Positions 24,155-63,432 of a DNA stretch of 64,000 bases are shown here, one piece after another. The stretch is from assembly GCA_964023275.1 (NCBI GenBank), contig OZ029922.1:1198741-1262740 (forward strand), written 5' to 3'. The position numbers and the translations under genes are program-made. The stretch comes from Norana najaformis (Eukaryota; Annelida; Clitellata; Crassiclitellata; Hormogastridae). How positions within the stretch are numbered: position 1 is the stretch's first letter; the number at the start of each line of letters is the position of its first letter. The notes under the pieces were generated by a model. That model did no database searches, was not told the origin of the DNA, and was given only the letters and a program-made list of their open reading frames with translations.

Positions 24155-25048
24155 ATGAGGTCGGATTCTCAGAGATTTGGGCTATGTGTCTATCTGACCC
24201 TGTTTGTTATTTGTGTTGAGGCCTCATTCCCACCAGATAAACAAGGTAAATGTATGCGTCATTATCGTAGTTGTGGATGTCATCATTGTAAATGTTGCAT
24301 CATCATATATTAGTTGTTGCATCATCATATTTGTGAGCATCGTAGTTGTCACCTTGATAGTTGTTGTCATCATTATCTAGTCGTTATCATTGTTGTCATC
24401 ATCTTAGTTGTCATCGTAGTTACCGTTACCATCGTATACTACACTATATTAGATTGCATTTGTGGTAACCATTCGACAGAGCATCCCGATGGTTTCTGGT
24501 TCGGAACGCAGTCGCTGTTCTGCATGACGTCCAAGGCTACCGGTCCACTTGCCCGTCTGATCAGCAAGAGATCCACGTCCTATGAGGCCACTCCCCAGCG
24601 CAATGGCCTTCGCTACATCCACCGCCTCATCTTCTATAGAGACACCGTCTTTGAGTGGGGTACGGGGGTCCGTGGCTACTACTGGGGCCTGGCCGCTTCC
24701 GTCATCGACTGTCCCGTGACCTGGGAGCCGTCGCCTGCTGGCCAGAGTCACTGCCCCTTCGAAGCCCTGGCCAACTTCACCCGCCTGTACCGAAACAGGT
24801 TTGGCCCTTACCACCTGGTGACGAACAACTGCCACCATTTTGCCAACCGTGTCTCTGCGTTGCTGTCCGATCCAGACTGTGGAGCGACTGGAGGGAATCG
24901 AGGAGTGGCCGATGGAATCGTCTCGAAGGTTGAGAGGTCCATCTGGAAGGCGATCAGCTTCGTTCTGTCCTACGTGGCACCAGTGCCCAGAACCGAAAAG
25001 GAAACACAAGATGTGCCATCGCAGGAAACTGAATTTATTATTCATTAG
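24155..25048 (+). CDS. Secreted PPPDE/DeSI-like (peptidase C97) thiol hydrolase candidate
   Basis: Two exons are inferred: 24155-24245 and 24480-25048 (TAG). The donor AAG|GTAAAT and acceptor GACAG|AG share phase 1. Exon 1 encodes a short N-terminus followed by the hydrophobic stretch LCVYLTLFVICVEA, a convincing signal peptide. The mature part contains YIHRLIFYRDTVFEWGTGV and, about 60 residues later, YHLVTNNCHHFANRVSALL. These match the two halves of the PPPDE/DeSI fold (Pfam Peptidase_C97): the His in the H-x-x-(I/V) strand and the Cys in the NCxxF motif. Family members act as deSUMOylating or deubiquitinating isopeptidases or as acyl-thioesterase-like enzymes in the cytosol. Secretion would be unusual for them. 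LRAT/NlpC-type proteins share the NCxxF motif and are the main alternative. Several extra Cys residues suit a disulphide-bonded extracellular protein. The protein is about 219 residues long. Confidence 0.68.
24255..24435 (+). repeat. Degenerate TTGTCATCAT minisatellite in the C97-like intron
   Basis: Words such as TTGTTGTCATCAT, GTTGCATCATCATA and GTAGTTGTCA recur throughout this short intron. Confidence 0.65.
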
Positions 25049-29063: not shown

Positions 29064-32000
29064 TCAAACATCGATCACAGATGATCTTGATCTCCGATCT
29101 TCCAAGTGCGTCAGATCGTTTTCCAGTTCGGAAAGCTCAGTTGCCTTCTGCTGGTACTTGAACGAGACAAGTCTCTGGTAGAAAATCACGGAGAACACGA
29201 TAAAAAGAACAAGAACTGGAATGAGAATCACGGTAACAACTATGGCCGCTGTTGTGCTGATGGCTATGAATCGAACCCATGCGAGCAGCGCCATCTGTCC
29301 AAGGAAAAGCAAGATTCCGAAACCCGTCGAAAAGATCCAGGCAAGTTCAATGAAGCCACGAAGCCGTGAGTGCGGTGAGTTACGAATTTCCAATGCGTCA
29401 TTAGACTCAGCGACTGCGTCAATGTGTGGAAGAATGCAAGTGCTGACTAAAAGTGCAATGAGATGGACTGCGACCACAAGCGAAGTGCAAACGGCAAATG
29501 TGACGATGAGACCCTGTGGAACTGAGTTGTCAAGGTTCAGCTCAACCATAGAAACCTGTGAATGAACAAGAAAAAGTTTTATAAATAAATAGCATATTAT
29601 TCCAAAATAAGACAACTGCAAAATAATTGTAGATGTAATGTAGTGTAATGGTCACAGGATAGTAAATGTAATGGTAATGTAATAAACATAAACATAATGT
29701 TAATGTAACTGTAAATGCAGTAGTAATGTAATTATACCTCCACTATTGAAATTTACAAACCAACCCAAGTTTATCATCAAACCCATTGCCCCAATTAATA
29801 TTCACAATTATTGCAAATTTAAAGTAAGCGTAAAAGCAATGGCAATGTAACTGTAAAAGCAATGGCTAAGTAACTGTAAAAGCAATGGCAATGTAATTGT
29901 GTGGAACATAATTGTAATGGTAAAACTGACATAGCACACTACCGGTGGCATAACTAGCCTTCCGAGGGCCCTTGTGCAAACTGAACTTTGTCTATTTAAC
30001 TTTACATAATTGAGCAACCGGGCCTTGGCCCCTTGGGAGCCCCGGCGGCCCCTGGCCTTGTGGCCCCTTGTGCTTTGCACAACCTGCACAATCTATTGCA
30101 ACGCCCCTGCACATTACTCTGGTGTCCTTCATACGGGACAATGGTGAGAAGACTCAGGTCTTTTAAATGATTACAAGTGGCATTACACTGATCGTCTAGG
30201 AGAAGAATGCAAAGTTTATGGAAATCTCATAATAGGCTCAACCAAGATTTTTCAAGATATGCATAATTATTAGTTTATTTGGGATGATCAACTAAAGGAG
30301 TTGATCATCGAAGAACTCAGTATTGGCACTCTAATAATTTAACACAACAAACTGGCTCTAGGTATATCTCGTTAACAGCACATCGCACCAATTACTGGCG
30401 CTATAAAATTTAAATACTGACAGCATAGGAACTCTTACCATAGCAAAGCCTGCCAGAAGAGCCGATGTTTTACTGGAAGTTTGCAATTTGGCACGAGCAA
30501 GGTGGAAACTGTGCCAGTTCTGGTCGAAATACAACGAAGGTCGTCTAGCGGAGATCGCCATCTCTCGTTCTGAACCAGAATTAGAAAAAGCGCCCAAACC
30601 CAACAAATTAACGCTCACTGGCAAAATCTCAGACAGCCGTACCGCATCCCAGTCATCTCCGAAGCCCGATCGCCTCCTGAAAGTACACAAACCCGTGGAA
30701 TTAGGGCGCCGAGGAACTTGAACGCGTTATCACATGGGCACAAGCCGTAAATCACAAAAACCATTGGCCTTATCAAACCCACCGAACTATTAAGAAACAA
30801 TATGGTCTCTCTCCTCAGCCTGCTTCCGATAACAGAATAACATCCGGCTATGGAGGACCCGCATGAAATAATATAGCAATAATAATTTATATTGTAAATA
30901 TTATTAGCCTACATATTTTGGCTCAGTGACTAAATTATTAAAAGCAGTAACTAGGATTAAAATAAAACATACAATTTTAGACAAAATTGTCTGTGATTTC
31001 GCAAGCATTATAAAATTCAACACGTCTGTTTGCTCAGTGGTTTAATAAGGCAATCGCCAGAACTCGAACAGTTGCTATATTAAAAAACCATGTTGGCGAA
31101 AAAATAGCAAATTAAACGATGTTATTTTTGCTAAAAAATTTAAAATGTATGTTAATTCAAATATTTAGAAGACATTTAAATAAAATAGCCAATTAGCACT
31201 AAATTGTGGGCCCTCAGGCGAATAAACCAATTGCAAAGAAATTGAGTTTTCTTACGCGGGTTAAGTCTTGAGTAGTCGTAATCGTAATCCCGAGATTTCT
31301 ACAGAGCCCAACGAAATCCATGTCACGAGGACCAGCTTATTCACAGGCGCTCAGTCAAAACAAAATCGTTAGACACAAATGGTTCGGTTCCGGGTCAAGA
31401 TCCAAAAGTCAGTTGGAATTCCTTTCATTTGATGTAATGTTTATAAAAGGTATGAGCGAGCATATCTAATAGTACTTTCTGATAGAACTCCTGAAAACTT
31501 CAATAACCATACAATATTTATCCCGTAATTATTATATTAAAAATCATGATATTTAGGCATTTGCTTCATAGTTGGAAGCCGTGAAAGACCGTATATATGT
31601 ATGCATCAATAGGCCTACACTTAATACAGCGCCTTTAAAGTAGGCTACTTCACAAAACGCTTTAAATGCACCTGTCTTCTGGACTATCTGAATTATGGAT
31701 CAAGACGTTAGTTATCCCTACGCCCCATATAAATCGCACCCTGCCAAGCCGAGGCCAGCGAGGGTTTAAAGTGAAAGAAAAAACAGTTTGATAGTAGGCG
31801 GTCACGAGCGTGATCAACACTAAAATGCCTCATCTAAGTCACGCGCTGCCTTCACAAAAACTACTTTTGAATCATACACTAAAAAATAAGTGTGGCACAA
31901 CGAAAATCTAGCGAATTTTACACCCAGGCCACGACCCTTTAACGCCAATCAGTGTAAAAACGTTGGAATGTTACTTTAACTGACCTTTTCCAGTCACCTT

Positions 32001-34243: not shown

Positions 34244-34380
34244 ATGACAGAGGTCGCTGCTGTCCCTACGGTGACGTCATCACTGGAGTATGGATACCAG
34301 CTTAGAGTCGCCGGCTGCGCAGTTCAAGTGGTCCAGCAAGAAATACACTCTGAAGGATTTGATTGCTCTAAGCAAGGATA
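34244..34380 (+). promoter_or_regulatory. Upstream ORF overlapping the GAREM-like start, with a CRE palindrome
   Basis: An ATG at 34244 opens a short frame that overlaps the main start at 34290 in another frame and stops at TAA 34378-34380. It lies just after a possible acceptor (TTTATAG). A perfect TGACGTCA (CRE/ATF palindrome) sits at 34272-34279. If this is transcribed leader, the uORF would reduce translation of the main frame; if it is promoter DNA, the CRE is a candidate CREB/ATF site. Neither role is shown by the sequence. Confidence 0.3.
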
Positions 34381-35163
34381 AACTGCCTGTGATTGTTTAC
34401 GTGGCGGAAGGATACAGCGGATCGGACGGTGATGACGCCCACGACATTGTAACTGGATCGGTACTTAATTAGTACTTGATTAGGATTTTGTCGAGTACTC
34501 GAGATATAAGTACAGAATAAGTAGAAACTAAAGCACAATTAGCGTTACACAGATTTTACCTGAAGTAAAATTTAGATGAACTAAGTTGCTACATATTAAA
34601 AGCAGTGAAATCTGTATTAGGATATTGGTATAGTATAGTGTGGTGTGGTATGGTGTGGTATGGTAGTGTAGCCTGTGTAGGGTAGGGTACGGTAGTGTAA
34701 AGTAGGATAATGTAGGTAATATTGATTAAGGTAAGTAGGTGGAGTTTAGGGTTGTGTAGGTTGTTTTATTAGGAGTCATTTCAATTCGTTAGTTTGCTCA
34801 TTCATTCGTCCATTGGTTCATTCATTCATTCATTCGTTCATTCATTCATTCATTCATTCATTAGTTTGCTTGTTTGTTCGTTCATTCATTCATTCATTCA
34901 TTCATTTCTGACTGATTTATGTTGCGCCAGGTCTTCTTCATCTACGCCGTCGAAGTTCAGTCGCGGATCGTGGCTCGAACGGAGGACGAGAGGTACTTGA
35001 GCATGGCAAGGTCATGCCCCGTCAACTTCCACGTCATCCTCAACGACGGGTCACGTGAGCATTACAACTAGGGTTTTACTAAACGGATTATATTTCAGGT
35101 GGTCTCCTTATCTTACTACCACTCTGTTACTTCCTCTGTCTATTTTGTCTATTTCTACCTATT

Positions 35164-35214
<51 letters not shown>

Positions 35215-38200
35215 TTATCTATCTTTCTTACTTTCTTTCTCTCCTTCATTTCTATAGCTGCTCCTTCTAATTTCTAATTTGATCAATCGATTGAGCAAAC
35301 TCATCTGTCAGTCGACCTACATAACCATCCAGTAAATCAAAAGCATCCATCAATTCACCCATCCACTCGGCCATACATCCGTCCATCCCAACCCACACCC
35401 ACCCACCCATCTATCCATCAAGTCATCCGTCTTCTTTTTATGCATGTGTAGTCAGTGAACCGTGTCCGTTGAGCGACATCGTTCATCGCGAGCACAACAG
35501 CCTCGGCGACCTGCAGATCCGGATTGCTGCACCGGAGGCTGGTGGTCTCGGTCCACTGGACGCCGGTTGCAGCGACATCCAAGGGTCTCTGAGAGTCCTT
35601 GATCTGTACGACGAACGGTATCTCCTCGGCCACTCCTTCATCGAAGGTCAGGATCAATCTATCGTTTTATTCGCAATCGAATGGCATATATATATATATA
35701 TACATATATACATGTATATATATATATACATATACATATATATATATATAGTGCAGAGGACAGTGCAATGCAGTGCAATGCTAACTGATGTAATACGATT
35801 CCATCTTCTGTACTTTGATACCATTTAATGCTACGAGATGCGCAGAGGATGTGTGAGAAAGACGGACGAATGCATTGAAAAACGCAATGTCCCCGAGTCG
35901 TAACGCACATGTATTAAACATTTGAAACAGTTATTACTAAACCTTGTTAATAAATCTAGTGATGCAAAGTGTAAATTTCTGTTTCCTGTGCTACCAGGTG
36001 GGTTTAGTGCGACTGAGGTCGTGTCAATTCCTTCCTATCTTCCCCTGATGGTTGTCCTCGCTACAGGAAGTAAGCATGGAGCTAGAACTGACTTCAAACA
36101 ATTTCTTAATCAGATCAACGCATCAGCGCTGAAGTTCCAACAAGAATACGCTAAACAACCAAGAAATACTGAAGGTATGTAGCCATATGTGCTTTTGAGA
36201 GGTTAATAAAAGGCGCAATATTAAGTGTCCTCCATCCCTCTGTCATTTTGAGGCATGTAATAAAAACCGTAATGTGAAAGATCAGATTAGGTTATAAATA
36301 CAATACACTACGTTTGATTAAATTTCCGCAACGTTAGGTTTCATAGTATATCAGTATATCATTATGCTGCGTTGAATCGTTTGGCATAGAGTGAATTAAT
36401 ATGGTATTGAGTTAAACTGGGTTGAATAAAATTGCATTGAATTGAATTGCATGGAATTAAACTTCATCGAATAAATTGTACCGAGTTAAGTTGTATTCAT
36501 TACTTCATTAAATTAAATTGCGTTGAGCTAAATAGATATGTATTTAATGAAATTGTACTTTAAATAAATTGCGTTGAATTAAGTTTCCTTATTGTATTGC
36601 TTTCTTTTCATGCAGAAATCGTTGTCTTTAGCGATCCTCCAAACGGCGATTATGAATATATCGAACCATCGATTCACTTGTCACCGATTCCGTCCTTCAA
36701 GATTGTCGACAGAACCCGAAACACCGAAGTGTTCCAGTCAAAAACCCCCACAGAAACACCCGAAACACAACAGAGAGAGTTTGCCACGATCCCCCGACTA
36801 CCACCGCGAAACGTTCCACGAAGTTCTCCTACCCTGGAGCGTTCTAAATTGGAAGAGAAAGTCCCGGAATCGAGGGTGACTTGGACTAACACCGGTCGGC
36901 GACCGCTTCCGCCTGTGCCGGATCAAACCGGAAGAGGAAGTTCTTTGACGCAAGAATGCTTAGGTGAGGAGCGAACGATTATCAAGAGCGCCCTGGAAGA
37001 GCGGAAGTTCGGTCATTCAAAGAAGTCAATTCTACCGTTTAAGAAAGAGTCTCGTTCCCTGAAGAAGGAGCCCCTTCGATCACCTCCCCGTTCTCCAATA
37101 CTTCCGTTGAAATTCGGGAACGTTCGGCCAGAAACGGAAGAAGTTTCATCGGATTCGGAAACTCTACAGCGTGGGCGGTCAACCGGAAACGCGTGGAAAA
37201 CCAAAGCGCCCTGCAGTGACCAAGCAACTTCCTGTCAGAAACTGGAAGTTCATAAGGACAACCCTCCGGTCACGTGGTCGTCTTGGACTTTCTCGCCGGT
37301 GATGAAAATCAGCGAAAAGTTGACAACGACGTCGCAGAAGTCGCGACCGCCAGTGCCAAAGAAGTCATGGATGCAGCCAACCGTGACAAAAAAGACGCCG
37401 CTGAGCAACAGGCGTTCCACTGGAACGTTGAAGGAGCCGGACGAATCGTTCCTCGACATCTCCAAGAACTGTGTTCAGCGACCCGGAACACTGACATTGG
37501 GGCAGCTCAACTCTTTGGGTTCCGAGGGCGAATATGAACCCTATTACGACGAAATCAACTCACCGCTGAGCCAAGTAGATCAATCAAGCGGAACGGCGGA
37601 AGAAACATCTCAACAGGATAACTATTTCGGTTTCATGTCGTCCAAGAAATCAGTCGCAGACAACAGCGAGACTCTGTCACTACGGTCCATTGACACTGGG
37701 CATCAGTCAGACGGAAAGTCCGACTCGGAAAACGAAGATCCGGATAGCTCTTACGAAGAAATCACTCCTCCACCGCCTCCCACATCATCCACAACAAAGA
37801 TCACATCAGACGAAGGGGTATCAGCTTCATCAGCTGCTCCGACTAACATTTCAATCTCGACCCTAAACAGCAGCGTTCACAACTTCATAAACACCAACAA
37901 CAATTTAGACTCTTCGCGCAAGAACTTTCCCGATACGTGGCTTCCGCTCAAGGAAAGCGTGAACCAGGTTCGAGCACCGCCGCCACAGTCGACAAAGCAG
38001 TCGTGGCAATCTGTTGACGATGTTCCCATCGATATCGTCTCCCTCTCGGTAGAACAGGTGTCCACGTGTCTCACGATCCTGAACTTGGGTCAGTACGTAC
38101 ATACTTTTCGCGAGCATCAGATCGATGGCGCTCTGATGTCCTGCCTCGACAAGGACGTACTCGTCAGCGACTTCGGGTTTCGGAAGTTCGACGCCATTAA

Positions 38201-38264
38201 GCTGGCGAAGTTCGCACGCGATGGATGGAGACCAAAGGTCAACAAAGAAGACACGGCTTGTTGA
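34290..38264 (+). CDS. GAREM: GAREM-like CABIT-SAM adaptor protein
   Basis: GAREM proteins couple receptor tyrosine kinases to Grb2 and ERK. Five exons: 34290-34460, 34931-35054, 35452-35646, 35998-36174 and 36616-38264; all phases agree and give 771 residues, slightly under the ~875 of human GAREM1. The N-terminus has QFKWSSKKYTLKDLI and KLPVIVYVAEG, aligning with the GAREM start, followed by a divergent CABIT region. The large last exon is disordered, with SH3-type motifs (RRPLPPVP, RPPVPKK) and candidate phosphotyrosine sites (GDYEYIEP, EPYYDEI, SSYEEITPPPP). Residues about 696-765 form a SAM domain (LSVEQVSTCL, QIDGALMSCL, DGWRPK), closely matching the GAREM SAM up to the terminal GWRPK. 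An upstream out-of-frame ATG lies at 34244. Confidence 0.88.
34794..34912 (+). repeat. (ATTC)n microsatellite in GAREM-like intron 1
   Basis: CATTCATTCATT runs broken by TAGTTTGCT-type interruptions. Confidence 0.85.
35166..35210 (+). repeat. (CT)n microsatellite in GAREM-like intron 2
   Basis: An uninterrupted run of about 22 CT units. Confidence 0.95.
35685..35752 (+). repeat. (AT)n microsatellite with ATACAT interruptions
   Basis: ATATATATAT blocks separated by ACATATAC; self-complementary and able to form cruciforms. Confidence 0.9.
36405..36590 (+). repeat. Degenerate ATTGCATTGAATTAA repeat
   Basis: A ~15-bp word (ATTGCRTTGAATTAA and variants) repeats about ten times immediately before the large GAREM-like exon. 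Confidence 0.65.
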
Positions 38265-39544
38265 TGAAAAACAGTAAGCGCTTGTCAGTCACAATCATAC
38301 GAGGAAAACAAAGGTTGAGCGTCCATCTCCTGCTTGACTAAATGCAGCTCCAGAGTTGATGAAAGGCAGCAAGCATGAAATGGTCAGTGGCATCGTCAGA
38401 AGGTGATTACAGAGGACAGGAGTAAAGTGTTCATCCCATACTCGACTAAAAGCCGCTGCCGTATTCCAGCGAAAAGTACGTACATCGCAGATGGATATGG
38501 ATGATACACCCTACTGATGATGAATAACTAGTATACGTCAGAGGCGTTGGTATACTGCCCCTATTGACTTCGAATTCATTCTGGGAAAGCGTAGGAGCTT
38601 AAAGGATTGATATATCTTGTGTTCAAAATGTTCCGAGTTTATATAAAATCTCGAATACCAAATATCTAATAATAATATTATTATTAGGAATGATTACTAC
38701 TAATAACAGGGCCTACCGAGTTGTGCAAGTAAACAAGAAAAGAATGCAATACATTACAAAATTTATACATCGCCATTTCAAAATTCAAATGCGACAAGAG
38801 TCTGACATATGCACAGAAAAGCAACCCTAGAATTCTAAACGAAACAAATTCTGTAGAAAACGCAAATCAAACTGAAAATTGCGGTAAAACAAGAATAGTC
38901 AGAGAAAGCCAATGTTTAAAATCACCAAAGTAATGCTCTTGATGAAAAACCTGGAGAAAGCAGAAGTGCAACTACAATGTATTTCTAAACTGAAGAAAAC
39001 CTTGCGAATATTGCAACTACTCTTAATCTATAGAAGCCAGTGTTTTGAATATCTTGGAACTATAGAAACCATGCAGTTTTGCAGTTATTTTTAACTCTAC
39101 AAAACATGAGAACATAGTAACTTTTAAACTATAGAAAAGCAGTGTTGCAACTAGCATTCCAGTTTTTAGGAAACGTGCAAGTAAGGCTTATTTTTGGTTT
39201 TTCAACTGAAGAAATTAGTGTTGCAATGATGCTTAAACTGCATGAACTAGCGTTGTAACTATCTTTAACTGTTAAAACCAGTGTTATAATAATTTCTCAG
39301 TAGACAGTTGATTAGTAAATATAGTTTAAATGCTTCATATAAGACAAATAGCAATAACGTTGATTAAGAGAAACCATAGTTATTTAAAAACTAACGATGA
39401 CAAATGAAAATTTCACGCTTGCTTAACCTGCGAGGAAAAAGTTTAAATAAACATATCATGAAAATACATAAAAATTATTGCATATAAATATCTTTCTACA
39501 TTGCTTCTGCGACCTTGCTTCCTAGTTGGTGAACTTTGTTGGTT
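38265..39544. other. Convergent spacer between the GAREM-like and CABIT-like genes
   Basis: AT-rich 3' sequence with the degenerate repeat at 38940 and an AATAAA near 39446 on the plus strand. No coding support. Confidence 0.45.
38940..39300 (+). repeat. Degenerate ~40-bp repeat (CAGTGTTGCAACTA)
   Basis: CCAGTGTTTTGAATATCT, GCAGTGTTGCAACTAGC, TAGTGTTGCAATGATG and CTAGCGTTGTAACTATC recur between ACTATAGAAA-type words. Confidence 0.6.
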
Positions 39545-41182
39545 CTAGATAGTTCTTCTACTCCGATAATATCTGAACCTGCATCTTCGCTCCTCTTCTG
39601 TCTCTTCTGCCCCTTCAAGTCGAGTTGATGAACTTCGGAAACTGGTTGTCGAATGTTCTCTTCTTGTAATTTTACCTGGACTTACGCTTCCAATCTTTTT
39701 CTGCCATCTTCTTTCATTTCTAGCTGATCTTCTGTCGTAATTTTTTCTACAGTCTTTTGCTTTCAATCCCATATCCGGGCTCCAACTCTTCTTCTTATTG
39801 TCCAATCTTCTGCCGTGGAAACGAGCCAGCGAGATTTCGCTAAAATTGGTTCCAAAATATTCTTCCTTCGGGGTAACATCACGAATCCTTGAGTGGTCTT
39901 CTTTAAAGCCAGGGGATCTCTGTTCGCAATTTATCCTGGACTGTTTTGCTCTCAAACCCATAACCGGGTTTCTCTTCCTTCCAACTGCAACTGAACTGAC
40001 ACAACTGGTTCCAGAATGTTCTCCTATCGTTGCAAAATCGGAATTTCTGCCCTGGCTCTGCGCATTGTTTGCTTCAGTCGCTAAGATTTCGTTTCCGATC
40101 ATATAATTTTCGATTGGGAAGCTATATCCAGAGGCTACGCTTCCCTGGAAGCTGGGTCCAAGTGCTACGCTTCCAAAGATGCTAAATCCCAGTGTTATTC
40201 TTCCCTGGAAGCTGGATCTAGACGCCGAACTTCTCTGAAAGCTTGATTCAGGTGCTAAGCTGCCTTGGATGCTGGGTCCAGATGTTACGCTTTTCTGGAT
40301 ATTGGGTCTCAATGTTATGCTTCGCTGGATGCTTTCCTTTCCGATCGCATAACTGTCGATTGAGAAGCTGAGTCCAGATGCTATGCTACCGTGGATGCTG
40401 TATCCAGAGGAAACCCTTACCTGGAAGCTGGAACCGGATGATACCCTTCCCTGAAGTCTAGATCTGTAATTGTTGCATCCAAATGATAAGCTTCTCTGGA
40501 TTCTAGACCGGGATGCTACGTTTTCATGCAAGTTGGATTCAGATGCTAACCTTTCCCTTTTTATCATAAATTTTTTTATTTGGAAACTTGGTTCAGATGC
40601 TGGCGCAGTTGACCTGAAATTTTCAGTAAAATGCGTTCTGTTCATTCTCACAATGAATTTCAGTCCGATGTTTTGCTCGTATCTCACGGGTGGCATGATA
40701 AGTGGAACGGTAGCTCCTAAGGCGCCCTCTCCGAGCCTTAGAAAATTCTTCGGAAACTTCACCGACCACTGCTCCACCGCTGATCTTTCCTGCGGCTTTC
40801 CATCCGGTGTGACAAGCATCAATGCCGGAACCTCTCCTGCAGTTCGCAGTTGGAAATCCACGATTGCACCGAAGCTAGAACATTTAACGTTCTTCAAGAT
40901 TTCCTTTGGTAGCATCGAAGCGGGAATAAGTATCAGTCTCTCAAATGAATTCCTACTTATCGTGTCTACATTATAGTACCTTTGAAGTACCCGTGACTCT
41001 ATCTGGAAGGTACGCATTATACTGTCATAATCACCGGCGTGGACGATTGATACACTGGCCACGAGACAGGCGCCCGGCTGAAATGTCTGTTCCACGTAAG
41101 AAGCGCAGAACTCGTTGTAAACACATCTGATGAAGTCGTGGTAATCGTTCGGAACAAGCAAGCAATACTGTCGCAGCGACAT
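39545..41182 (-). CDS. CABIT-like (THEMIS-related?) protein with decapeptide-repeat tail
   Basis: A single open frame of 545 residues. The first ~200 residues are clearly homologous to the neighbouring 42722-44032 protein: QYCLLVPN, FCASYVE, GACLVASVS, SFERLILIP, VPALMLV, FPKNF and LIMPPVRY are shared. The order of motifs, a (L/F)LxPxxY strand then P-x-LML and an FPxxF strand, resembles CABIT modules of THEMIS and GAREM. Family assignment is inference from short motifs. The C-terminal half is basic and Ser-rich. It contains an imperfect 10-residue repeat of type SFQGSVALGP (about 40110-40560 on the plus strand). The homologous leader upstream of the ATG is interrupted by a TGA (see findings), so I chose the ATG at 41182. 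No intron is evident. The gene is tail-to-tail with the GAREM-like gene. Confidence 0.6.
   Translation of the reverse strand: MSLRQYCLLVPNDYHDFIRCVYNEFCASYVEQTFQPGACLVASVSIVHAGDYDSIMRTFQIESRVLQRYYNVDTISRNSFERLILIPASMLPKEILKNVKCSSFGAIVDFQLRTAGEVPALMLVTPDGKPQERSAVEQWSVKFPKNFLRLGEGALGATVPLIMPPVRYEQNIGLKFIVRMNRTHFTENFRSTAPASEPSFQIKKFMIKRERLASESNLHENVASRSRIQRSLSFGCNNYRSRLQGRVSSGSSFQVRVSSGYSIHGSIASGLSFSIDSYAIGKESIQRSITLRPNIQKSVTSGPSIQGSLAPESSFQRSSASRSSFQGRITLGFSIFGSVALGPSFQGSVASGYSFPIENYMIGNEILATEANNAQSQGRNSDFATIGEHSGTSCVSSVAVGRKRNPVMGLRAKQSRINCEQRSPGFKEDHSRIRDVTPKEEYFGTNFSEISLARFHGRRLDNKKKSWSPDMGLKAKDCRKNYDRRSARNERRWQKKIGSVSPGKITRREHSTTSFRSSSTRLEGAEETEEERRCRFRYYRSRRTI
40110..40560 (-). repeat. 30-bp (10-residue) coding tandem repeat
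   Basis: Within the CABIT-like frame the peptide repeats a ten-residue unit of the kind SSFQGRITLG / FSIFGSVALG / PSFQGSVASG. In DNA this is a ~30-bp unit with drift, and the period keeps the frame. Two SF-x-I-(D/E)-x-Y blocks interrupt the series. Confidence 0.75.
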
Positions 41183-42721
41183 TGAATCTCAAGTGGCAAC
41201 GCCAGGGGAGCGAACGAGGTCTTGAAAGACAATTAATTTACCCGAAAGGGGAATTGAAAATAACTGTCAGCCTTTTGCTTGCTCATCCACGAGCTTCAAC
41301 CGCCTAAAACTTGCCAACTTTCTGGTACAAATGGTCGCGCTGTGTCGCATGCCAACGTGTCGTATACTACCACTGATGTACTGTCTCCAAAAGGACTACC
41401 ATACAATTAGAAGACCTGTATTCTGGTCTGTCGAGTAGTTTTGCATCATCGAATAGGCCAGTATTCTTTTTACAATATGAGGGAGTGGTAAGTAGATTAA
41501 AATTCAACTATGTGTAATATAAATAATTAGTGGAAAATCGTTGCATATATGAAGTATGGTTTTATCCCTTTCTCTCTGCCTTCTGTCTCTCTGTGTCTCT
41601 GTGTCTATGTGTCTGTTTGTTTGCTTCTTCAGTCTCTTGCGCTTTCGTTCATTCGCTGGGCTTCTAATTCCCTAAAGGGAGCCGTATAAATGCGTTGTTG
41701 CAGTTACATTTTTAATTGCGTGCAATTTCTCGAAGTAAAGGAATGCTCGCAGGCTCCAGAGCTTGATGATGACTGCAAACGATGGCAGGTGCGTTCTCAT
41801 TTTTGTGCCACATAAATCGATATAAGGTCAAGTCTTGTAGAGAGAAATTATGCTTCATTAAATATAATTGAATAGAGATTTCAAGATATCATTAAAATCT
41901 ATCTGTGCTGTATTTCCAATAGGCTTTTAAATGTATGGTAGAGTAGGATAGTACGGTATGATAAGGCAAGGATGAGCATGACATGGACATGGCAGACCAG
42001 AGTAGGAGAGGGTAGTACGGTATGGCAAAGCAGGGCTAGACAGGGCAGGAGGAGTAGAGTAGATTAGAGTCAGTTGGCGACACCGTCGGGATAACCTAAA
42101 CGTAGAAATTTTTACCTTTTCCAAAGTGGTCAGTCTGATGGTATGAAATAATTCCAGCAATCAAATATTCATTATTACTGCAGGGTAGATTATTATAATT
42201 TCCATGCATAAAATTACAAAGTAGGCATTAGTAACACAATGTAGTGCAAGACAAGATTTATATAACGCCTTTCTAAAATCAAAATACAACAGGAATTTGA
42301 AAAGTGATTTTAAATACAATAACAGCTAGACAAAAAAACTGCAATTAGGCCTAGTGTAAAACGGAAGCAGCAGAAAAATATCAATTGTTAAAATCGCAGA
42401 AGAATTGCAGGGTCAGAGTTCAAAGTTCCTCGTGGAAATCCGTGTTGCACATATACTTTTAAACAACTATTCATTAAATACGGACAAAAGGTTTTGCATT
42501 TTAATATAAACTAGAATAAATATATTAATGTAAATGAAAATGAAGCTGAGAAATCAAAGTAAACCTTTCAAAGACATCAATGGTATCTACGATATGACAT
42601 ACATACACACATACATACATACATACATACATACATACATACATACATACATACATGCACACACATACACACATACATACGTGCATACAGAGTGCTTTGT
42701 ATAAGCAACCAGGAAGAGAAC
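41183..42721. other. Spacer between the two CABIT-like paralogues
   Basis: Holds the stop-interrupted leader homologous to the other paralogue (41183-41250), a LINE-like tail fragment (41660-41710), a G-rich GGTA/GGCA repeat (41935-42070) and the ACAT microsatellite. Confidence 0.5.
42600..42685 (+). repeat. (ACAT)n microsatellite
   Basis: About 18 ACATAC/ACAT units just 3' of the minus-strand CABIT-like gene. Confidence 0.95.
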
Positions 42722-44032
42722 TTATGGATTCACTCCAGATTTTGGTTTAGCTCGGTGCTTCTTTCTATGAACATCTTTTGTGCCCTTCGTTTCTGGTGGC
42801 TTGGATGGTTTTTGTGCATGCTCTTGAGTTTTCTCGTCGGGTAGTGATGCTTTCATCTTTGGCATCTTCTTCTTGACTTTTAACCCATGCTGAGGACCTT
42901 TTAGAAGAGGTTCTGTGCTGTCGTCTTCTGCGGATTTATCGAGATTTGTGAACTTCTTCTGGGCATTCGTTCTTCGAACTTCGTGACCGCTTGCCAAAGT
43001 TTTGTAACTGGCTCTAGAATGTTCTTCCATCTTGGAAAAGTCTGAATTCGTGTTTTCACGCTGGATATTCATGCCACAGCCTTCGCTTCTATTCCCTAAG
43101 GTTTCCATACCAGTTCTAGAATCCTTTCCTGCCTTGGCATACTCAGTACTCGCGCACTGTTTTTCTGTACTCTCTTCTCCAATTTTAGAAGTAGCGACTG
43201 AGCTTTCGTGACTGGTTTTTGCATGCTTTCCAATCCTAGCGTTATCAGAACTCGTTGCCGGTTCTTGTAAGCTTACGACTCTTGCTAGGTCTATTGAAGT
43301 AGCCGCTAAATCTTTCCTTCTGATTGTACGCCTTCCCAATCTGCTGCTGACTCCAGACGATCGTGTAGGCGACCGCGAACCGCCAGTAATCGATGACCTT
43401 TCCGCACAAAACACATATTTCGGTCCAAGATTATCGCCAAACCTCACTGGCGGCATGATCAAAGAAACCTCCATGTTGACAGAGTTCTCTCCAAGCTTTC
43501 GAAAATTCGGCGGAAAATTCAACTGTCTCGATTGGACACTTTCTCCGGACTTCAGATTTGGAGGTATGAGCATAAGGGCAGGAGCCTCTCCATCGTTTAG
43601 CCGTTCTGGAACTCTTACGAACTCCACGTTTGCAGCATAACTGATTAGAGTCCCGCGGTATGAACTCCAAATCTCTTGTGGCAGCGTCACGTACGGCGTT
43701 AGGACGAGTTTCTCGAATGAATGGCGCCTGCGAGTGTCAACTTTGAAGTACTTCTGCAGTAAAGTGGGGTTTAACTTTAACACGATTACTTGGCTGTTGT
43801 ACGATCGACGCCGGAAGAAGACGAGAGACACGAGAGCAACGAGACATGCACCCGCTGGCCAGGAGATCTCGACGTACGAGGCACAGTAGTCGTTATCGTT
43901 GCGTTTTATAAACTCGTTGTAACTGTTGGGTACAAGTAAGCAATACTGCTGCAAGGATGTTTCTTGTGTGACAGCCCCAGATGGCACGAGCGAGGTCCTG
44001 AAAGAAACGTACTTGCCTGAAATAGACTCCAT
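42722..44032 (-). CDS. CABIT-like (THEMIS-related?) protein, tandem paralogue
   Basis: A single open frame of 436 residues, paralogous to 39545-41182 over the N-terminal ~200 residues and weakly in the tail (NSDF-x(4)-EHS in both). The start GKYVSFRTS followed by QYCLLVPNSYNEFIKR resembles the CABIT strand pattern of THEMIS (a GKxxxxxK strand, then FLIPTSYxGKFKRR). Later come EAPALMLIPP, NFPPNFRKLG and VSLIMPPVRFG. The tail is Lys-rich and ends KKKMPKMK, then a basic C-terminus. The ATG at 44032 gives MESISGK, but TCTATTTCAG at 44017-44026 is also a good splice acceptor, so the true N-terminus could come from an upstream exon. A role as a cytoplasmic signalling adaptor is inferred from the CABIT family. 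Confidence 0.6.
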   Translation of the reverse strand: MESISGKYVSFRTSLVPSGAVTQETSLQQYCLLVPNSYNEFIKRNDNDYCASYVEISWPAGACLVALVSLVFFRRRSYNSQVIVLKLNPTLLQKYFKVDTRRRHSFEKLVLTPYVTLPQEIWSSYRGTLISYAANVEFVRVPERLNDGEAPALMLIPPNLKSGESVQSRQLNFPPNFRKLGENSVNMEVSLIMPPVRFGDNLGPKYVFCAERSSITGGSRSPTRSSGVSSRLGRRTIRRKDLAATSIDLARVVSLQEPATSSDNARIGKHAKTSHESSVATSKIGEESTEKQCASTEYAKAGKDSRTGMETLGNRSEGCGMNIQRENTNSDFSKMEEHSRASYKTLASGHEVRRTNAQKKFTNLDKSAEDDSTEPLLKGPQHGLKVKKKMPKMKASLPDEKTQEHAQKPSKPPETKGTKDVHRKKHRAKPKSGVNP

Positions 44033-44624
44033 AAGGATGAGACTATTTTTTCTGACTTTACTCGTATTTGCTTACTCCCAGATTTACAGCCGTCTGATGT
44101 CGTCAAACGCAGACTCTGTGAACTTTCGGGTTCATGCTATCACAGTTACTGGCATTTATGTCACATATAGGTGTCGCGCTGTACATAACGCTATGGCATT
44201 AACTGTTGCTTGTCGAAATACGATATCCTAAACACATAGTAGCCAAAAGCTAATGAGATGCCCTACCAATCCCAGCATTTCAAATCTCGCGATTCCATCG
44301 ATAGGCTATTCAGGCTTGTCGCACAGAACACAGTGGGTATGTCATTAGGGTATGCAATACTTCTGTGCTTCTAACTACTATATGGAATGTATTATAGTTG
44401 TACAACGTGCATGGGAACGTCCTCGCTGTCGGTCTTGTTTGTCTGTTTGTCTGTCTGTCTGTCTTGTCTATCTACCGCATAATAGGCCTATATAGGCTAT
44501 TAAAATGCTAGGCCATATATAGTACAGAAAAGAGGAATTCTCCACCATGGTTGGGACGTTTACAACAGTTTCAGCCTATATTTCTGTCATCAAGCTATCT
44601 GTCTGTCTATCAGCCTGCCTGATT

Positions 44625-44665
44625 GTACATATGTATGTATGCATGTATGTATGTATGTATGTGTG
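44625..44665 (+). repeat. (TATG)n microsatellite
   Basis: ATGTATGTATGCATG run; a TGTC run precedes it at 44437-44465. Confidence 0.85.
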
Positions 44666-44949
44666 TCTGTCAATCTGCCTGATTATCCTTCAGTCACAGT
44701 ATATCCATGTGTCTGTCTTTCTTTCTGCCTGCCTGTCTGAACATAATACACGATGTATCATATATACATATAACACAAGATAAGCATATAGCCTATACAT
44801 TGGCATCATGTCTCTTTCCTCCCATATATAACAGGTCAAAAGTATGTCTCAAACCAGTTGGCACCCAAATTACTATCGATATTTAGAGTCAGACATCGCA
44901 GTCATATTTAAAAATATGTTAACGAGTGTTCGAGACACATTGTTGTTTT

Positions 44950-44992
44950 TTCTTATCTTGTCTTGTCTTGTCTTGTCTTTTCTTGTCTTTAG
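44950..44992 (+). repeat. (TCTTG)n microsatellite
   Basis: About seven TCTTG units leading into the repeat shared with 12830. Confidence 0.9.
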
Positions 44993-45085
44993 CCATCTTC
45001 GATCTGAAGGTTGGTCGCATCATGAATTGTCCGTCTGTAGATGTTTCGATCATCGGTTGTCCTCAGTAATTGACTCATAGTAAAT
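44985..45085 (+). repeat. Dispersed repeat shared with 12830-12935
   Basis: Same word series as at 12830 with small differences (GTTGTCCTCAGTAATTGACT), so a second copy of an unnamed element. Confidence 0.75.
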
Positions 45086-45754
45086 ACTATTAATAATTAA
45101 ACTCATTGATGTCTAATATTTCAAGGCATTGCTCTTAAAAGTGTAGCTGGATAGAATCACATCGTAAACATGAATACACCGATTAAATGCAGTTTCAGTA
45201 TGTCAAACATTTGCATTTTAAATTAAATAGCTCACTTGTTTACACAGAATAGTTCGTAACTCCTCAGAAGCGTGTTCAAGAGGTCGAAGGATCAGTTACA
45301 TTACTGTACATTTCCATTACATTATTTATCTAAGGCGCAAATTCGACCACATCAATCTAACGCAGACACTCGTGTCTAACTCTCATTTATTGTTGTTCGT
45401 CGATGTTATTGTTCCGAAAGGCGCAGTGTATATACACCGTGACGGTTCCAGTCGAGTGAACAGAGTGTCAAAAGCAACTGCAGTTTCAAGTAATACGCAA
45501 GTGAAATTGTAAAAATTAATTAATGCCTTGCTCAGCCAATTAATAAGGCGAAGAAATCGATCTATGAAGCAAGTCTTAGTTGACTGTCGGAGAGTCAGAA
45601 GACTGTCTACTTTCATGGCTCAACGAGTCACAAGACCTTTATCGCCAATCGTATCGGAGTAAGTTGATAGTGCCTCGACGTTGAAACTGGAATAAAAATA
45701 ACATCTATCGATTTGTCATAGAGGAATCTATATATGTTCTCTAATTATAATCTC

Positions 45755-45895
45755 GTGATTTCGTAATCGTTATCATAATCTCGAGATTTCTACAGAGCCC
45801 AAAGAAAGCTAAGTCGTGGAAACTAGCTTATTCACAGGCGCTCAGTCAAAACAAAATTTATAGGAAAGTAGGATCAGCTTCGGTTAAGGTCAGAT
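45755..45895 (-). mobile_element. LINE 3'-end fragment, inverted
   Basis: CGTAATCGTTATCATAATCT, GAGATTTCTACAGAGCCC and TTATTCACAGGCGCTCAGTC match the same family. Confidence 0.65.
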
Positions 45896-46307
45896 TCGGT
45901 TACTTTGTCACAGAGGAACATATAACAAACAGCCCTTGAAGACTTGATTTGATATAGCGCCGGTAAATAAGTTGGTCTCTCTGACGCGGCTTTTCCGTGG
46001 CGCAGAGAAATTTTGGAGATTTACTTCTGCAGCATATTACATAGGTCCCTATAGCCTAATCTACTATTGCACAAAGGAATATGTAGTCTATCCTAATCCA
46101 ATAAAATCTGGCCTAACCTTATGTGATCTAATCTAGCCTAGCCTAATCTAATCTAATGTTACGTAAGAACTTTATATTGCGCCGATGTAAATATACCCAG
46201 GGCATCAATCAAAGGCGCGCCTATCCTCGAGGGAATGAGAGAGAGAGACACACACATAGAGAAAAGGAGCCAGGCAGACAGAGAGGCAGAAAGAGAGGCG
46301 TGCATAC

Positions 46308-48596
46308 CTAATTTGCTTTTTGTGAAGCTGTCTTCTCTTGACTGTTGACATCATTGAAGATATTGCCACTGCGATTGCCATCAATATCTCTGTCGCTATC
46401 ATTGCTGCTCGTTTCTTCCGTGTTACGTCTGGTGCTGTTTGTCGCAACCTCTCGTCTGGTGTTCCCAGGTGAATGTGGGATGCTGATTCTTCTCTTGGAT
46501 ACATCGCCGTCCGATGTTTTACCTTCATCGCTTCCGTCACCTGCATCAGCAGCATTGGAACTTAAAGAAACTGATGATTGTCCTTTGTCTTCTTTTGTCC
46601 TCTGATCTTCGCTGCTCTGGGAGAGGCGTTTGTTTTTTGTCTTCTGGATGCTTTCCTTTTCTTCTTCGTTCTGTGAAGATTCGCTTTCTTCAAAAGTCTT
46701 TTCTTTTCGCCCTCTGTTGATTTCTTCTTCTTCTTCGTCGTCGTCATCTCTAGAAACGTCTCTCTGATTCTTAGCCTCACGCTGGCCTCCCTTTGAACTT
46801 ACCGGCCTCGGCTTTGAACTGTCCGGCCTTCGCTTTGAACTGACCGCGGAGGACTTGCGATCGCCGCACAATCCCTTTTGATCTTTCTCTCTGTTAGCCG
46901 CCCCAGTCCTTCTGTTATCATCCGCTGCTGAAGAGGTTCTAGACTTTCTATCTGATTCTTCTTGTCTTCTTGCATCTGTTGACTTCGTTCTTTGTTGACC
47001 CGAGTATGCTGTGCTGTATTCAGCGGTGCGTGGTCGGCTGAGATACCGTGTGTATGCTTCGCACTCCTTGGGCGAATGAAAGCCTAGCAGAGCAATAGTG
47101 ATATTAGTAAGATTATTATGCTAATTAAGCAGTTAGAACCGAATCTGACCATACCTCCCGAACCTTCACAGCGCAGCCTAAGAGCTTCGCTGTGATCCGC
47201 ACATCTTTCTGGAATAAGTTGCCTAGCAACCTGCGACATAAGCTACTTGCTCTTTCATTGCCTCTTTTCCTTAAGCACTTGACAAGTATTCATTTCGATC
47301 GTGGTTTCGTTATGTCACGTCGGAAACTCCTCTGACGGGTTTCTGCTGCAGCGGTGCTAGATAAATTGTCAGTTGCAATTAAAATATGTGTACATTTCTG
47401 AATACCTGTTGCAACCCTGCCATTGTAATAGCACAATGCCATGACCAGTTAGCCGCACCGTTTCCGTGAGCAATCCCTGGCGGTATAGAAATTTGCAATT
47501 ACAATTACGATACGTGCATCACAGATACTGGTTTTTATTAAGCGCCTATGACTAGCTGGTTCCCACGACGTACCTTTTTTGGCTGCCAAAGAAATCCGGA
47601 GATTACGATTACGGTTACGGTAATGTAAAGGAGAACTTACCCAACTGTCGCTGCCTGGCCAGTAGGTTCCTGTACTGCATTTCCTTTTGTAGTTTCATAT
47701 CCGTTATGTCGTAGATCTTCGCCAAGCAGTACAGGTAATAGTTGTTTCCTTTGCGAAGGTCCAACTGATGGGCATGTGGCTGCCGGTTCGAATCCGTGTA
47801 GGGACTTACGTAGCCCTTACGCCGGCCCTGTCCCTGGGCTGAGGAGTGGAATGACTTTGGCCTGGCTGCTGAGGACGACGTCTTGCTCTTGTTCTTGCGC
47901 GGTGGTCTGGGTGATGCGGACTTTAAATCGGTCTCTTCGTCATCGGAGTGCATCGATGCGTGACTTGATTTTCGGAACTGTTCCTCTTCACTGGTTTTCT
48001 CGTCGATTAGTGTCCTTTGATGATGGCCTTCGTTCGACGATTTGACGCGTCGACTCTGTGTAGGACTTGGCGGCTTTTGTCCTGCGCCGTCCCTACGCTG
48101 TGGCTTCGACGATTTTGGCCTTGACTTATCGGGTCCTTCAGGTTGTGTTTCTCCATCACTCGAGGTCAAAGGTGGCTCGTATTTGATCCTCAGGGAGTTT
48201 GAGTGACGACTCCCTACTGAACTCGGAGGGCCTTGTGAGGATAAATGAACTGTCGAATCGCTTCCACCCTTTCTGCTTTTCTCTATGACACAGAATAGCA
48301 TTCGTTACTTAAGGCAATGCGATTAACGCAGTCAAATGTATGCATGTAAGTACAGTATGCAAGTAAATATGTATGTATGTATCTGTGTGTGTATGTATGC
48401 ATGATGTATGTATGTATGTATGTATTGTAATGCATTACATTGCCCTGTATTGTGTTGCTTGGGCTTGTATTGTATGGTAGCCTATAGACCTACATGTATA
48501 AATAACTAACCGCTTGACAAATTCAAGTTTAAGTTATACTGTTTAAAATGAGTTTGACACCGACCTGATTGATGTTTCCTTGTAGAACGATTGGAG
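46308..48596 (-). CDS. Uncharacterised charged, Ser-rich protein (5' incomplete)
   Basis: I do not recognise this gene. Three exons are inferred on the minus strand: 48596-48565 (32 nt), 48282-47641 and 47083-46308 (TAG); the phases agree (1, then 1). The second exon ends in a well-formed, probably folded segment (LRKGNNYYLYCLAKIYDITD, then MKLQKEMQYRNLLARQRQLG). It continues across the splice into FHSPKECEAYTRYLSRPR. This ~65-residue block is the only region likely to be conserved. The rest is disordered: RKGGSDSTVHLSSQ, SPRPPRKNKSKTS, an acidic run DDDDEEEEE, and many Ser/Lys. The stop TAG abuts a strong donor-like GTATGC, so an alternative 3' structure is possible. The start codon lies upstream of 48596 and was not found. 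Confidence 0.6.
47185..47395 (+). mobile_element. LINE C-terminal remnant inside the unknown gene's intron
   Basis: Contains TTTCTGGAATAAGTTGCCTA, CGACATAAG and GATCGTGGTTTCGTTATGTC, close to the remnant at 58605, and ends GCGGTGCTAGATAAATTGTC. It is opposite in sense to the host gene. Confidence 0.6.
47520..47625 (+). mobile_element. LINE 3'-end fragment
   Basis: TTTATTAAGCGCCTATGACT, GCTGGTTCCCACGACG and GGAGATTACGATTACGGTTA are a diverged copy of the ATTACG-tailed family. Confidence 0.5.
48365..48428 (+). repeat. (TATG)n microsatellite
   Basis: TATGTATGTATG runs with a GTGTGTG interruption. Confidence 0.85.
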
Positions 48597-50544: not shown

Positions 50545-50872
50545 CCAATTACCATGATTGCAATTGTATTGCCGCATCGATTCACTTCACCCAACACTTC
50601 ACCCCTTGCAATCTCTGCACAGGTCTTTCACTCAAAACTGAAAACATTCCACTTCCACAAATCCTACCCTGATTTATCACTCTCGCTGCCGAAAATTCTA
50701 AACACCGTCCACCATAGCCGTCTGACTGTCTGACTGCCTTACTCTTGGATCTGACCCTTACTGCCTAGCGGATTTGTTTTTTGCCTTAGCGCTCCAGAAT
50801 AAGCTGATTCCCGCGACTAAGCTTTAGTTGGGCGCTATAGAAATCTCGAGATTACGATTATTGTAAGCCTAC
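50545..50872 (+). mobile_element. Second 5'-truncated LINE 3' end, in tandem
   Basis: Repeats the last ~300 bp of the element at 50885: CTTGCAATCTCTGCACAGG, TCAAAACTGAAAACATTCC, then GGCGCTATAGAAATCTCGAG and ATTACGATTA. Same orientation, immediately upstream. Confidence 0.68.
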
Positions 50873-50884
50873 TGTATTGCAATT

Positions 50885-51562
50885 CACTATTCCTGAACAT
50901 AGGCTTCACCCAAATAAGCCGCCTTCAAGCCATCCAGAATGCTCTTGCTCGTGCTGTCATCAAAACCCCCAAACACCATCACATCACTCCTGTTCTTAAA
51001 TCACTACACTGGCTTAAAATACCAGAACGGAGTACAAAGTCCGATCACTTACCTACAACACACTTCAATCTTCCCAACCCTCCTACCTTCGTCAGTTATT
51101 TACAATACAACCGCTTCGCTCAACCCTAACACTTCTCCGCCCTCCCGTCACCTCATCCTGAAAATTTGGTAATCGCTCCATAGCCATAGCTGCCCCACCA
51201 CTCTGGAATAAACTCCCCCCAGAACTGCGACAGTTTTCTGACACATACAAACTCATTGATGCTCCACCGCTTGCAATTTCTGCGTCGGCCCTGCACTCAA
51301 AACTGAAAACATTCCTCTTTCACAGATCCTATCCTGACACCCCTTCTTACTCTTATCTCTCTCTGCTCTCCAGCCCCAAACATCATCCCCGTAGCTGCCA
51401 CGCTGTCTCTCCGTCTGACTTTTAGATCTTGACCTGGAAAAGAACCCTTTTGCCTAACGATTTTGTTTTGACTGAGCGCCTGTGAATAAGCAGGTCCCCG
51501 CGGCGCGGCATTCGTTGGGCGCTGTAGAAATCTCGGAATTACGATTACGATCGTGTCATAAT
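50885..51562 (+). mobile_element. 5'-truncated LINE (L2/CR1-like) with ATTACG tail
   Basis: Broken frames read ARAVIKTPKHHHITPVLKSL then HW, and later PLWNKLPPEL-like words (CCACTCTGGAATAAACTCC). These are the C-terminal signature of non-LTR reverse transcriptases of the L2/CR1 group. Frameshifts and stops show it is dead. The 3' end has TTTTGACTGAGCGCCTGTGA and finishes in ATTACGATTACGA. Confidence 0.72.
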
Positions 51563-63030: not shown

Positions 63031-63432
63031 GTCCTGTGGGACTGAGTCTTGACCATATGGCCTTGACCCTGCCCTGTGGGACTGATTCTTGACCATATGG
63101 CCTTGACCCTGCCCTGTGGGACTGATTCTTGACCATATGGCCTTGACCCTGCCCTGTGGGACTGATTCTTGACCATATGGCCTTGACCCTGCCCTGTGGG
63201 ACTGATTCTTGACCATATGGCCTTGACCCTGCCCTGTGGGACTGATTCTTGACCATATGGCCTTGACCCTGCCCTGTGGGACTGATTCTTGACCATATGG
63301 CCTTGACCCTGCCCTGTGGGACTGATTCTTGACCATATGGCCTTGACCCTGCCCTGTGGGACTGATTCTTGACCATATGGCCTTGACCCTGCCCTGTGGG
63401 ACTGATTCTTGACCATATGGCCTTGACCCTGC
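63031..63432 (+). repeat. 40-bp satellite array, about ten near-perfect copies
   Basis: Unit: CCTTGACCCTGCCCTGTGGG followed by ACTGATTCTTGACCATATGG. Nine full units run from 63061 to 63420 with partial units at both ends; the only difference seen is GAGTC for GATTC in the first. Because 40 is not a multiple of three, all minus frames stay open by chance; these are not genes. Confidence 0.97.

Follow-up and report, generated by a model that had tools for sequence, protein, structure and literature searches.

A divergent GAREM-like CABIT-SAM gene beside an intronless orphan gene pair in the annelid Norana najaformis

A 64,000-nucleotide stretch of the Norana najaformis genome, here called the window (C10:1198741-1262740, in a genome of 608 Mb in 17 contigs), carries three neighbouring genes which raise the question of whether CABIT-type signalling proteins are clustered at this locus in familiar and unfamiliar forms. 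One of these, named W here, occupies 34290-38264 of the forward strand, with an ATG at 34290, a stop codon ending at 38264, five exons with GT-AG borders and a product of 771 residues. The other two, PA (42722-44032) and PB (39545-41182), are intronless tandem paralogues on the reverse strand, with PB lying tail-to-tail with W. The original prediction placed all three among the CABIT proteins, with W as a GAREM-like CABIT-SAM gene and the pair as short forms without a SAM domain, derived by duplication from an ancestor like GAREM or THEMIS. Sequence comparisons suggest instead that, of the three, W alone is CABIT-type and a divergent member of a known, GAREM-like kind. On the whole, it is probable that W belongs to the GAREM-like family, while PA and PB form an intronless orphan pair not shown to be related to it. 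The parts of W are as follows:

34290..34460, + strand: exon 1 of W, gene start and first part of the CABIT region (gene model; CABIT profile rank 1 of 769)
34931..35054, + strand: exon 2 of W, CABIT region continued (VFFIYAVEVQSRIVARTEDERYLSMARSCPVNF; CABIT profile rank 2 of 769)
35452..35646, + strand: exon 3 of W, CABIT region continued (W-family profile rank 3 of 769)
35998..36174, + strand: exon 4 of W, closing part of the CABIT region (IPSYLPLMVVL; rank 4 of 769 for the W-family profile)
36616..38264, + strand: exon 5 of W, a long stretch bearing SH3-ligand and acidic-tyrosine motifs, followed by the SAM domain and stop (W-family profile rank 5 of 769)
38022..38219, + strand: SAM domain of W, residues 692-757 (PDB match 2dkz, Pfam SAM_1)

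The C-terminal SAM domain of W points to GAREM. Searched alone, it has as its top PDB match 2dkz (LOC64762; E 3.4e-4), which we take to be the SAM domain of GAREM1, and a seven-member profile made of W and six relatives from the same genome brings this match to E 1.2e-11, with the next family following at 2.3e-6. The Pfam SAM_1 model scores the isolated domain at 25.5 bits, above its cut-off of 23, and the whole protein at 20.5 bits, below it. These results support a SAM domain of the GAREM type and uphold that part of the prediction.

The N-terminal region of W was compared with CABIT domains at the level of profiles. Comparison of single sequences by hhalign was too insensitive, with human THEMIS CABIT1 scoring only P 0.032 against CABIT2; hence, profiles were assembled from this genome's own genes, of which several pass Pfam, together with human GAREM1 and THEMIS. 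The human sequences were checked by Pfam, whose CABIT model scores them at 234 and 430 bits, respectively, and THEMIS also by PDB. With a hidden Markov model of three CABIT sequences, none of W, PA and PB could be told apart from shuffles. W reached P 1.6e-4 with the first pooled CABIT profile and, with a pool enlarged by two domains, P 4.9e-6 (probability 86, score 44.3, with the best of 100 column shuffles reaching 20.2). Eight single-sequence CABIT controls, each left out of the profile in turn, scored between P 2.2e-6 and 2.2e-22, the hardest being THEMIS CABIT1 at 2.2e-6; for several of them close paralogues remained in the profile.

The signal is sharper for the W family (W plus exon pieces, three loci), an alignment of four rows of which one is a chimaera of two paralogues: it matches the CABIT pool at P 1e-9 locally and 8.8e-11 globally, and the GAREM-type group, in local mode, at P 1.8e-5. 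Further, a CABIT profile built without W, when run over 769 segments of the window, places exon 1 of W at rank 1 (E 4.3e-7) and exon 2 at rank 2 (1.3e-4). A W-family profile, likewise without W, puts exons 1-5 at ranks 1-5 of the 769 (E 4.4e-10, 8.4e-7, 1.1e-4, 0.0063 and a weak 0.44), a ranking that supports the exon model and, as the rows were found by a search with W, is not wholly independent of it. The exon 2 junction is also present in the relative L049.

Several results weigh against a CABIT assignment for W. The Pfam model PF12736 finds no match at E<=10, whether it is given full-length W or residues 1-222. Against the separate group profiles, W alone scores P 0.15 (GAREM-type), 0.043 (THEMIS-first) and 0.0046 (THEMIS-second). 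The query was 253 residues long, and the pooled profile matches it locally no further than residue 110; aligned globally with the GAREM-type group, the W family falls in another register. The pooled comparisons nevertheless support the N-terminus of W as a divergent CABIT domain missed by Pfam, and W can accordingly be retained as a CABIT-SAM gene by profile comparison, though not by Pfam's model.

W apparently belongs to a GAREM-like family that is enlarged in this animal, as judged by related sequences across the genome. Its SAM region is matched by 15 other loci (E<=1.4e-8, 30-49% identical), the 24 matches of the search being these 15, the five exons of W and four weak ones. The loci lie on contigs C2, C3, C4, C6, C9, C11, C13, C16 and C17 (10 of the 15 being L038 and L040-L048), and in six of the 15 matches there is a stop codon, possibly their natural end or a sign of decay. 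CABIT exons were sought beside five of the 15 and are clear at L049 and L051 (best E 5e-7 and 1.3e-6), with the two C3 loci (L050) giving only weak pieces at E 0.04 to 3, and the C9 locus (L043) likewise at E 0.06 and 0.28.

CABIT domains as such are also widespread, with seven other loci above the Pfam cut-off (seven of eight matches) and all six of the CABIT proteins from this genome scanned with Pfam passing. A tandem array of single-frame genes, THEMIS-like by our own label, has seven places at C10:28.03-28.08 Mb (28029845-28076587), accompanied by a copy at C6:20006159-20007589 (with the array, L018-L025) and a ninth, weak match on C13. Two copies in the array share 94% and 97% identity with the query copy, and Pfam detects two CABIT stretches in one of the three THEMIS-like proteins scanned and one each in the other two. 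Additionally, CABIT genes with a single open frame, a long tail and no SAM match are found on C13, C11 and C7 (L011, L012 and L013); the proteins of L012 and L013, unlike that of L011, have SH3-ligand motifs in excess of shuffles. The premise that known CABIT proteins are few thus fails in this genome, given its seven other Pfam loci and 15 loci with the SAM region of W. A literature search for lineage-specific GAREM expansion found none, and among the matches listed for Serrano and CABIT nothing seemed relevant by title.

The tail of W offers hints as to its function. The protein contains three class I and three class II SH3 ligands, numbers reached by 1/300 and 6/300 shuffles, respectively, and 14 acidic-tyrosine sites, reached in 1/300. 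Since both kinds of motif exceed shuffles, W would probably be a GRB2-type adaptor by analogy; what is observed directly is the domains and motifs alone. As described in PMC8086153, GAREM becomes phosphorylated on tyrosine after EGF stimulation and uses its proline-rich region to bind GRB2, and PMC4339124 has THEMIS binding the C-terminal SH3 domain of GRB2, which bridges THEMIS to SHP1. By extension from GAREM, W would most likely be tyrosine-phosphorylated after receptor activation, with its tail docking GRB2-type proteins and its CABIT and SAM domains serving partner binding. Two observations run counter to such a role: a motif scan found no YxN site in W to which the SH2 domain of GRB2 could bind, and its ITIM-like (immunoreceptor tyrosine-based inhibitory motif) site is no more than chance expectation.

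It remains to ask what PA and PB are. Their features are the following:

39545..41182, - strand: PB, single-exon orphan gene, 545 amino acids, start MSLRQYC (stop-to-stop open reading frame 39545-41188)
40622..41182, - strand: residues 1-187 of PB, a conserved N-terminal domain (alignment with PA, rough dN/dS 0.19)
41183..41248, - strand: DNA upstream of PB matching the first codons of PA (GKYVSF part), with a stop codon and frame shifts
42722..44032, - strand: PA, single-exon orphan gene, 436 amino acids counted from the ATG
43397..43957, - strand: conserved domain of PA, residues 26-212 (alignment with PB)

The two proteins are identical in 92 of 223 aligned columns (41%, E 2e-48). Over 179 codons their genes differ 67, 54 and 108 times at positions 1, 2 and 3, respectively, and a rough ratio of nonsynonymous to synonymous divergence (dN/dS) is 0.19, with a dS of 2.4 that is near saturation. 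An open run of 436 codons has, at the stop frequency of the window, a probability of about 2.5e-11 per start; this length, the 41% identity and the third-position differences argue that the frames are not chance products. Beyond PA residue 212 the match fades (10 of 34 residues identical), and both tails are fast-diverging and rich in serine and basic residues. No SAM domain is matched in either by Pfam at E<=10, and together with the 41% identity this agrees with their description as tandem paralogues lacking SAM. The positions given for the two genes stand, and so do the motifs for PA, where GKYVSF, LLVPNSYNEFIKR, PALML and FPxNF are all present; PB lacks the GKYVSF part in frame. The matching DNA of PB has an in-frame TGA, one inserted base and one missing base relative to PA, and, because these interrupt the stretch, the first in-frame ATG of PB is that of MSLRQYC at 41182. 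A tblastx comparison of 43900-47500 with 41050-42720 revealed no convincing common upstream exon beyond the start region, the other matches being simple repeats for the most part, besides a few that are short and weak. The tail of PB also bears a decayed 30-base (10-residue) repeat at 40117-40330.

In a search of the whole genome, which scores the best candidates only, PA retrieved PA and PB alone (4/4 candidates scored), and PB retrieved itself, PA and five weak tail-only matches with a best E of 0.005 (7 matches, 12 candidates scored). No family match to the pair was found in Pfam (E<=10, with HMMER filters discarding most matches above E ~0.1), NCBIfam (E<=1) or PDB sequences (E<=10). PA and PB thus appear to be a constrained orphan pair, with no other copy found in this genome.

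The case for PA and PB as CABIT proteins was examined with the same means as for W. PF12736 matches neither at E<=10. Against the CABIT profiles the pair scores P 0.6 and, in a later comparison, P 0.21; its score is reached by 15/100 column shuffles in local and 43/100 in global mode, as against true controls at P 2.2e-6 to 2.2e-22. Comparison with the W family shows no similarity, 50/100 and 22/100 shuffles reaching the score. Over the 769 window segments, the CABIT profile puts PA at rank 169 of the 492 listed, with PB absent among the matches listed, and the W-family profile puts PA at rank 52 and PB at rank 85 of 469 listed. CABIT is defined, in PMC3931654, as an all-beta fold of at least 12 strands with a conserved cysteine-containing core motif; in profile comparison, no dependable PA/PB alignment locates this core. 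A structure model of PA residues 1-226, made from the two sequences, has a mean predicted local distance difference test (pLDDT) score of 29.8, too low for a fold to be read from it either way. The CABIT identity of the pair, and with it the descent from a GAREM- or THEMIS-like ancestor, therefore finds no backing, with no Pfam match and profile scores at shuffle level; a CABIT profile search without a match was itself one of the two outcomes, the other being predicted structures without a CABIT fold, that the original prediction had named as telling against it.

Some points do favour PA and PB as short, SAM-less CABIT proteins from a GAREM- or THEMIS-like ancestor that have diverged beyond recognition, and count to that extent against their orphan status. 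They adjoin the CABIT gene W, and single-exon CABIT genes occur in this genome. The negative result is also limited, as the PA/PB profile consists of two sequences only, and a true CABIT pair, the THEMIS-like first versus second domains, likewise failed it at P 0.12. Moreover, QYCLLVPNSYNEFIKR resembles the THEMIS strand HFLIPTSYKGKFKR (hhalign against THEMIS CABIT2 alone, residues 28-57, P 0.12, which is chance level); this one comparison contains the motif match of the original prediction, LLVPNSYNEFIKR with THEMIS LIPTSYKGKFKR. Four of the eight other local comparisons point instead to the CABIT signature strand, with the best PA/PB alignment covering PA 93-109 or part of it and ending at PA 108 or 109, again at chance scores. 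These two registers are incompatible and neither rises above chance, and with the shuffle results and segment ranks given above this descent is rather unlikely. We regard as unlikely, too, a version in which the pair are pared-down CABIT modules, colinear with the short CABIT of W and derived from it as SAM-less decoys without SH3 ligands. PA and PB do have zero SH3 ligands of either class, where chance would supply about 0.1-0.2 of each, and the comparison with the W family is the one at shuffle level noted above.

The same absence of relatives could fit genes captured from a mobile element or virus and retained by the host, for PA and PB are intronless, isolated, without a Pfam match and without further genomic copies found. 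However, only two adjacent copies were found, and no relative was seen in phage records (searched with PA only) or in viral contigs and prokaryote genomes (scanned with two short patterns each, with animal viruses covered as in the viral contigs). PHROGs gave nothing for PA and at best E 0.33 for PB, in its tail, leaving capture very unlikely. That the pair are decayed pseudogenes is more improbable yet: the N-terminal stretch read in frame by PA is indeed lost in PB, but the frames are open over 436 and 545 codons and their differences fall mostly at third positions, with the low dN/dS given above. We accordingly prefer the reading of a constrained orphan pair, for which nothing beyond neighbourhood was found to connect PA and PB with CABIT or with W; the suggestion that they work together with W likewise has no support beyond neighbourhood. 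As orphans, they would most likely be small binding proteins, in which the constrained N-terminal domain of ~187 residues might recognise a partner and the basic, serine-rich tail might act as a loose tether.

The surroundings are those of an animal genome, with an Orai gene at 29064-29651 and fragments of major-facilitator type at 54839-56041 and 56227-56595. Neither Rfam nor a tRNA search gave a match in the window. Elsewhere in the window, a 40-base tandem repeat in 10 copies, 99% alike, spans 63033-63432 and is open in several frames, so that the protein-like open reading frames there are probably repeat artefacts. An open frame at 50821-51129 resembles, by eye, the end of a retrotransposon reverse transcriptase, with no Pfam match, and another at 24314-25048 has weak matches to PPPDE and LRAT, under the Pfam cut-offs.

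If W is as it seems, its 16 GAREM-type SAM loci and the THEMIS-like array would make this animal suited to studying the role of CABIT adaptors beyond T-cell signalling in vertebrates. PA and PB are of lesser weight, their constrained domain being an orphan for which no relative was found; they matched no known family, and the count of two copies refers to this one animal genome. In terms of known systems, the THEMIS family has two consecutive CABIT domains, in place of which W has a single CABIT region, then a tail and the SAM domain; PA and PB differ from THEMIS in lacking a detected CABIT match. GAREM1 and GAREM2, adaptors of GRB2 with a CABIT domain, a proline-rich region and a SAM domain, are closer, since W has a like order of CABIT, motif-rich tail and C-terminal SAM; unlike them, its CABIT is short and falls under Pfam detection. 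The numbers also differ: mammals have three THEMIS genes, according to PMC4082722, and two GAREM subtypes, according to PMC8086153, as against the THEMIS-like array and the 16 loci (W and 15 others) with a common SAM region in this annelid.

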